NCBI GenBank assembly: GCA_016842005.1
Contig: JAENYD010000017.1
Coordinates: 1 to 51,831, forward strand
From: Clostridium thermobutyricum
GTDB lineage: Bacteria > Bacillota > Clostridia > Ch29
Length of the DNA: 51,831 nt
Reading direction: 5' to 3'
The translations under genes were made by a program, and so were the position numbers. The stretch's first letter is position 1. Every line of letters begins with the position of its first letter. Shown here in pieces: positions 50,890-51,831 of this stretch. The notes below the pieces were generated by a model. That model was not told the DNA's origin. It did not search any database and worked only from the letters and a program-made list of their open reading frames with translations.

Positions 50890-50916
50890 AAAACCTGCAG
50901 AACTATCCTTGCAGGT
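50888..50916 (-). terminator. Terminator after the aspartic protease gene
   Basis: ACCTGCA and TGCAGGT form a 7-bp stem on the minus strand, followed by TTTTTTG. The protease stop codon lies in the loop and its last codons form the stem's 5' arm. Confidence 0.75.
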
Positions 50917-51283
50917 ACATTTTTAGCGTCTTTAAATCTATAATAAATCCAGCATTCAATAGTATATCCAAACCTAAAAGACCGTTTATATCTTCATACA
51001 GGAAACTTGTAAAATCTAATGAGCAATTATCTAAACAAAACTCTCCAACTTGAACTTTATCAATAGTCTTAACAAATGCATGTTCCTTACCACCGATACC
51101 ATAAGATGTAGTAATCTCATCCTCTCCACTAACCTTTATATCGATATCATCTACACAATCCTGAGATATCAACGATTGTGATGCCCCAGTATCAATTACA
51201 ATGTTTTCTATGATTTTGGATTTGCCTTTGTAAGAAATCTCAATGGATGTAAAAAGCAAACCATCCCTATACTCAATGTTCAT
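50903..51283 (-). CDS. Retropepsin-like aspartic protease
   Basis: This 126-residue protein has the catalytic signature IVIDTGASQSLIS near residue 28-40. The second hydrophobic-hydrophobic-Gly motif, GLLGLDILLNAGFIID, is near residues 97-112. It is a single-lobe clan AA protease that would act as a dimer. There is no signal peptide or membrane span, so it is cytosolic. GGAGAG precedes the ATG by nine bases. It overlaps the small upstream gene by 11 bases, so the two are cotranslated. The substrate is unknown; the partner is an obvious candidate. Confidence 0.85.
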   Translation of the reverse strand: MNIEYRDGLLFTSIEISYKGKSKIIENIVIDTGASQSLISQDCVDDIDIKVSGEDEITTSYGIGGKEHAFVKTIDKVQVGEFCLDNCSLDFTSFLYEDINGLLGLDILLNAGFIIDLKTLKMYLQG

Positions 51284-51527
51284 TTATATATACTCTCCTC
51301 AATCCAATCCTTGTCCTAAGCTTTAAAACAACATTATCCTTTGAGGTATGATATATAAGGATATTGTCCTTTGAACTCAGGAGTTCCTTAGTTGCTTCCT
51401 CGTCTGAAACAGGCCCAATAATTGCTATCTCGTCTACAAATTCCTTATCTTCTTCTATATGGGACTTTAAAACCTCAAGCTTAACGAACTGGTTGGGATA
51501 TATATTTCTAACTTCATTCCACTTCAT
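51273..51527 (-). CDS. Small partner protein of the protease, unknown
   Basis: The 84-residue acidic product begins MKWNEVRNIYPNQFVKLEVL and continues with IEEDKEFVDEIAIIGPVSDEE, ending VVLKLRTRIGLRRVYINEH. The pattern suggests a small beta-rich alpha/beta fold. No family name is recalled, though similar proteins seem to be encoded next to aspartic proteases in other Clostridia. AAGGTGA stands six bases before the ATG, and an extended TGGTATAAT lies about 37 bases upstream. It is the first gene of the two-gene unit. Confidence 0.7.
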   Translation of the reverse strand: MKWNEVRNIYPNQFVKLEVLKSHIEEDKEFVDEIAIIGPVSDEEATKELLSSKDNILIYHTSKDNVVLKLRTRIGLRRVYINEH

Positions 51528-51624: not shown

Positions 51625-51732
51625 AATTTTGTAGAACGGTCCCGGCTTCACGGCGCCCCTGAGCCCACAGGTGACCGCTCATGCCGGGGACCCTCTGGGT
51701 CGGCTAATGCGGTCATCGCCTAGTACAAAATT
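51625..51732. ncRNA. GC-rich structured element, RNA or small mobile element
   Basis: The 108-base segment is bounded by AATTTTGTA (51625-51633) and TACAAAATT (51724-51732), which pair perfectly. Inside, GGTCCCGGC (51639-51647) pairs with GCCGGGGACC (51683-51692) with one bulge, and TGAGC (51660-51664) with GCTCA (51677-51681). TGACCGC (51672-51678), partly in that hairpin's loop, can pair with GCGGTCA (51709-51715) as a pseudoknot. It is much richer in G and C than its surroundings. The rest of 51528-51831 holds a short hairpin near 51579-51594, the cassette promoter and the terminal repeat. Strand is undecided. Confidence 0.4.
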
Positions 51733-51777
51733 TCATAAATAACTATATGGTTTCCTCTTGCTGTAACCTTTAAATAA

Positions 51778-51830
51778 TTGTTGCTGCTGGCCTATGATAT
51801 CCGGAAATTGACGGTGTTAAATGCCCCAAA
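51778..51830. repeat. Terminal inverted repeat of the window, right copy
   Basis: These bases are the exact reverse complement of 1-53. Read outward it starts TTGTTGCTGCTGGCC, and a frame LLLLAYDIRKLTVLNAPN is open through it, which might belong to a transposase end. The flanking base to the left differs from that at the other copy, so the repeat edge is sharp at both places. Confidence 0.8.
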
Positions 51831-51831
51831 T

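Follow-up and report, generated by a model that had tools for sequence, protein, structure and literature searches.

A probable integron attC remnant in Clostridium thermobutyricum and its array-borne relatives in the Bacillota

The window (the whole stretch of DNA analysed here, 51,831 nucleotides) was one entire contig (G000:C16) of the draft genome of Clostridium thermobutyricum (2.62 Mb in 55 contigs), which also encodes a protein that is presumably Spo0A-like, named from its sequence; a relative of the same family was deposited as a Bacillota MAG. Both contig ends carried the same repeat (positions 1-53 and ~51777-51831), which recurs at the termini of further contigs and is common to six other places; it is probably the terminus of an insertion sequence at which the assembly broke. 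On the minus strand at 764-2060 lay parts of a group II intron (RF02005 at 1826-2060 and RF00029 at 764-919), apparently degraded, with only short reading frames between the parts. Towards the other end, two minus-strand genes encoded an 84-aa protein with no assigned function and a retropepsin-like aspartyl protease, preceded by a GC-rich element (Table 1).

Table 1. Features of the element and the adjoining gene cassette, in window coordinates.
Feature	Position	Strand	Basis
Probable 5'-truncated attC	51625..51732	-	Low-coordinate part and middle homologous to attC; no L''-L' pairing left
R' box GTTCTAC, core GTT	51631..51637	-	Sequence; same junction in G003:C34
L' arm with the GGGCTCAGGGGCGCCGTGAAGCC block conserved in the attC family	51638..51666	-	Homology to attC of G002 and G260
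attC terminal hairpin	51672..51715	-	Outer stem TGACCGC/GCGGTCA, conserved tip GCCGACCCAGAGGGTCCCCGGC; homology to two G318 attC
Breakpoint zone in place of the R''-L'' arm, with the second half of the 9-bp repeat	51716..51732	.	No L' pairing above shuffled
Cassette gene 1, 84 aa, no assigned function	51273..51527	-	Homologues in G003:C34 and G003:C29, both attC loci
Cassette gene 2, retropepsin-like aspartyl protease	50903..51283	-	PF13650, PF13975

A sequence-only reading had proposed that the element forms four helices and a possible pseudoknot. All of the segments it named were present: sequences able to form a closing 9-bp stem (AATTTTGTA at 51625-51633 with TACAAAATT at 51724-51732), the letters of a long internal stem (GGTCCCGGC at 51638-51646 with GCCGGGGACC at 51683-51692), a hairpin, and a 7-bp pairing (TGACCGC at 51672-51678 with GCGGTCA at 51709-51715). 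Fold stability was mildly unusual, with z = -2.15 on the plus strand (7 of 200 shuffles as good) and z = -2.38 on the minus strand (4 of 200). That reading recognised no RNA family, and Rfam likewise gave no match to the element, at gathering threshold or at E up to 5.

A first DNA search of relatives returned many weak matches, of which those to AT-rich flanks were taken as chance; the element itself was matched in its low-coordinate part only (~51635-51666). These matches fell in attC sites of same-family genomes, occurring in spaced pairs in G003 and G005, and the matched sites were ~165 bp long, with GCCTAAC-like and GTTAGGC-like ends, and lay between unrelated genes, which is the layout of integron attC. 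Identity across the L' arm region was 91% over 32 bp to G002 and 93% over 29 bp to G260. In a wider search the middle of the element had two matches among the attC sites arrayed in G318, with single-genome E values of 6e-10 and 9e-8; in the hairpin region the alignments covered 56 bp at 84% identity and 35 bp at 94%. The G318 sites contained both parts of the element in matching order, so the two belong to one attC. The hairpin core was present in only the host genome and G318 among the 391 genomes searched, and a similar truncated copy lay just outside the array of G155. Phage and plasmid collections gave no DNA match to the element, and the hairpin core had no exact counterpart in viral contigs.

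The homologues also sorted the proposed helices. The 7-bp pairing matched the outer stem in the terminal structure of attC, and in one G318 site (G318a) TGACCGC/GCGGTCA was replaced by CAGCTAC/GTACCTG, keeping six of seven pairs, five by double change, around a conserved tip; the other site kept four of seven. The terminal hairpin was thus supported by the homologues, and the claim of a real, structured element with relatives is borne out by attC homology and this compensatory change. Neither homologue had the long internal stem, and the pseudoknot of which it is a partner is therefore rejected; the 7-bp pairing was nested in the minimum-energy plus-strand fold.

Read on the minus strand (the attC top strand, the plus strand being the bottom strand that would fold), the element ran terminal hairpin, L', R', the order of the 3' part of an attC, and an L'-R' arm with core GTT was present. 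An R''-L'' arm able to pair with it was not found: the duplex scored -8.1 against a shuffled mean of -9.9 (sd 2.2), and the sequence beyond 51715 paired with L' no better than shuffled and showed no homology to that arm in relatives. The element ended 99 bp from the contig end, which is itself repeat, putting anything beyond out of reach of a search for the missing arm. A whole-site attC covariance model gave 6.2 bits (E 0.6), not above background, a low score expected if one arm was lost but also if the element is unrelated. Since this model misses the element, its assignment to attC depends on the two partial homologies and the cassette context.

That context was specific. Bases following G^ in the R' box were the first bases of the next cassette, and an attC in G003:C34 was followed by both cassette genes, the cassette there beginning at the same G^TT point (GTTACACAAAAT in G003:C34, GTTCTACAAAAT in the window). 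In G003:C34 the cassette ended with a matching R'' (GTGTAAC), while that of the window had lost its own attC and adjoined a weak transposase match. This correspondence with G003 indicates that the attC remnant of the window has a real cassette after it. From homology and cassette context, as read in the sequence, we identify the element as a decayed integron attC recombination site, with a probability of roughly 0.88. On this reading it is a DNA site, not an RNA, and marks what is left of a Bacillota chromosomal-integron cassette array. With no L''-L' pairing left, the site is unable to form its R/L stem and has probably lost its activity.

The 9-bp closing repeat counts against a decayed attC: it is uncommon both among shuffled sequences (P = 0.005) and among equally spaced segments of the window (P = 0.002), and truncation does not account for it. 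One half of it, at the low-coordinate end, forms the beginning of the downstream cassette; as a speculation, the other half might stem from miscopying templated by a hairpin. The repeat also brackets the element and shares bases with the R' box, and the plus strand, which would be the recombining strand, folds as one hairpin closed by it, as would suit a complete, functional and unusually short attC in which the repeat replaces the normal R stem. We consider this improbable, given that L''-L' pairing is absent, that the complementary stretch continues beyond R' into the following cassette without taking in the AAC/GTT core of the opposite side, and that relatives of the same subfamily have a normal R''-L'' arm. 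A new structured RNA, namely a pseudoknotted riboswitch or ribozyme that would act upstream of the operon for the 84-aa protein and the protease, is more doubtful still: a mildly stable fold and one stem with compensatory changes would fit it, but its homologues are attC sites, single-stranded DNA folds at cassette junctions, located 3' of many unrelated cassette genes; in G003 the gene pair follows a different attC; the long stem that the pseudoknot requires is absent in both homologues; and Rfam has no match. The suggestion of a small non-autonomous transposable element, prompted by a GC-rich core between 9-bp inverted repeats, can practically be dismissed, as the element is single-copy in 2.62 Mb and 55 contigs rather than dispersed, no relative has both ends together, the core is that of an attC, and at the low-coordinate end the repeat forms the beginning of the downstream cassette.

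A covariance model built from 14 sites recovered 142 attC sites in 26 loci, and 31 of the 391 sampled genomes of the class, in 23 genera, carried such sites. The largest arrays held about 35 sites; the single-contig genome G318 had ~35 over 65 kb, and G155 and G111 had long arrays too. These relatives had a conserved folded stem with covariation, numbering 385 double-change cells against 108 in shuffled and 38-101 in slid controls, a count somewhat inflated by fitting the alignment to the model. At consecutive sites the outer R' complemented the R'' of the next site perfectly in 64% of cases, against 15% within the same site and 6% at random (0 of 2000 permutations), and this match is the trace expected of integron cassettes closed and exchanged at G^TT. 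No extrahelical base was found within the L stem, the modelled stem having equal 9-base arms in 131 of the 142 sites. The large arrays kept one orientation throughout (G318:C1 2.086-2.150 Mb, G155:C9 64-87 kb and G111:C9 1-19 kb). In known integrons extrahelical bases set strand choice, and the single orientation is unexplained given stems that have none. At G003:C33 (L071 2435-2601) a group II intron domain (RF02003) adjoined a disrupted attC, an arrangement reminiscent of the group IIC introns that target attC sites.

Elsewhere in the host genome, contig C9 held another intact attC, and at the end of contig C23 a partial attC lay beside an integrase remnant of about the last 107 residues, directly after spo0A. 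This C-terminal fragment (L069 5236-5570) started a few bases from the spo0A stop codon, which points either to a deletion that fused them or to a misassembly. A 109-bp stretch of cassette end plus attC was 100% identical between G000:C23 and G003:C48, which belong to two genera, suggesting recent exchange or draft contamination. Clusters of attC lacking an integrase are known as CALIN (PMC9024848); the host genome resembles them in having attC remnants and an integrase surviving only as a fragment, but differs in that the window has one degraded site and the relatives have full arrays with an integrase.

In G318, G155, G003 and G380, the distance from an integrase with an open reading frame to the first attC was at most ~0.9 kb, and the 3' end of the integrase gene pointed towards the array. 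The best solved relative of the array integrases was VchIntIA (2a3v), a likeness that includes the C-terminal SPLD motif, and in a tree they grouped with IntI apart from host Xer proteins; that tree left most inner branches unresolved and contained just two IntI, so we claim no branching order. Unlike IntI, five of five aligned array integrases had no IntI-specific I2 (patch III) insertion, four of the five had an extra N-terminal domain, and no integrase in the 12 genomes examined reached the curated integron-integrase cut-off (TIGR02249). Those of G001 and G003 did exceed the cut-off of NF040815, 'site-specific tyrosine recombinase/integron integrase', a family whose name is silent on attC arrays and which includes a Chryseobacterium plasmid member. 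A Chryseobacterium plasmid recombinase (L167 2968-4011) was 42% identical and shared the extra N-terminal domain.

Integron attC sites comprise R''-L'' and L'-R' arms, an unpaired spacer, extrahelical bases and a variable terminal structure (PMC2727003). The window element shares the core GTT, the L' arm, the terminal hairpin, the position at a cassette junction and a next cassette beginning at G^TT, but lacks the R''-L'' arm; its intact relatives depart from known attC in having no extrahelical base within the L stem and in being unusually alike in sequence. By analogy with known integrons, one DNA strand of an intact site would fold as a long hairpin, whose paired R and L boxes the integrase would bind, swapping that strand at G^TT so that a gene cassette is inserted or removed. 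Here the L'-R' half and the terminal hairpin are retained and the R''-L'' half is lost, with the downstream cassette (the 84-aa protein and the aspartyl protease) still beginning exactly at the crossover point.

I2, supposedly essential for the use of attC hairpins, is regarded as a defining trait (PMC9668308), and in the published account I2 and the extrahelical bases are co-evolved hallmarks of integron recombination, I2 being gained by integron integrases to recognise the extrahelical bases of attC, which poses a chicken-and-egg paradox (PMC4792948, PMC7790495). Almost no integrons have been reported from the Firmicutes/Bacillota, with one complete integron and a few CALIN reported (PMC9024848), and the part of the literature that we covered held no description of integrons without I2. 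We give even odds to the proposal that a class of the Bacillota has true cassette-shuffling integrons with an integrase naturally devoid of I2 and attC stems devoid of extrahelical bases, representing either a pre-I2 state or a second solution to folded-DNA recombination, of which the window element would be a fossil. The intact relatives would then recombine as folded single strands without I2. As a broken site the element is of modest interest in itself, and the family that it exposes matters more. If the proposal is true, arrays that combine the cassette signature, an I2-less integrase and the absence of extrahelical bases would make the paradox directly testable, and sizeable chromosomal integrons would be extended to the Bacillota.
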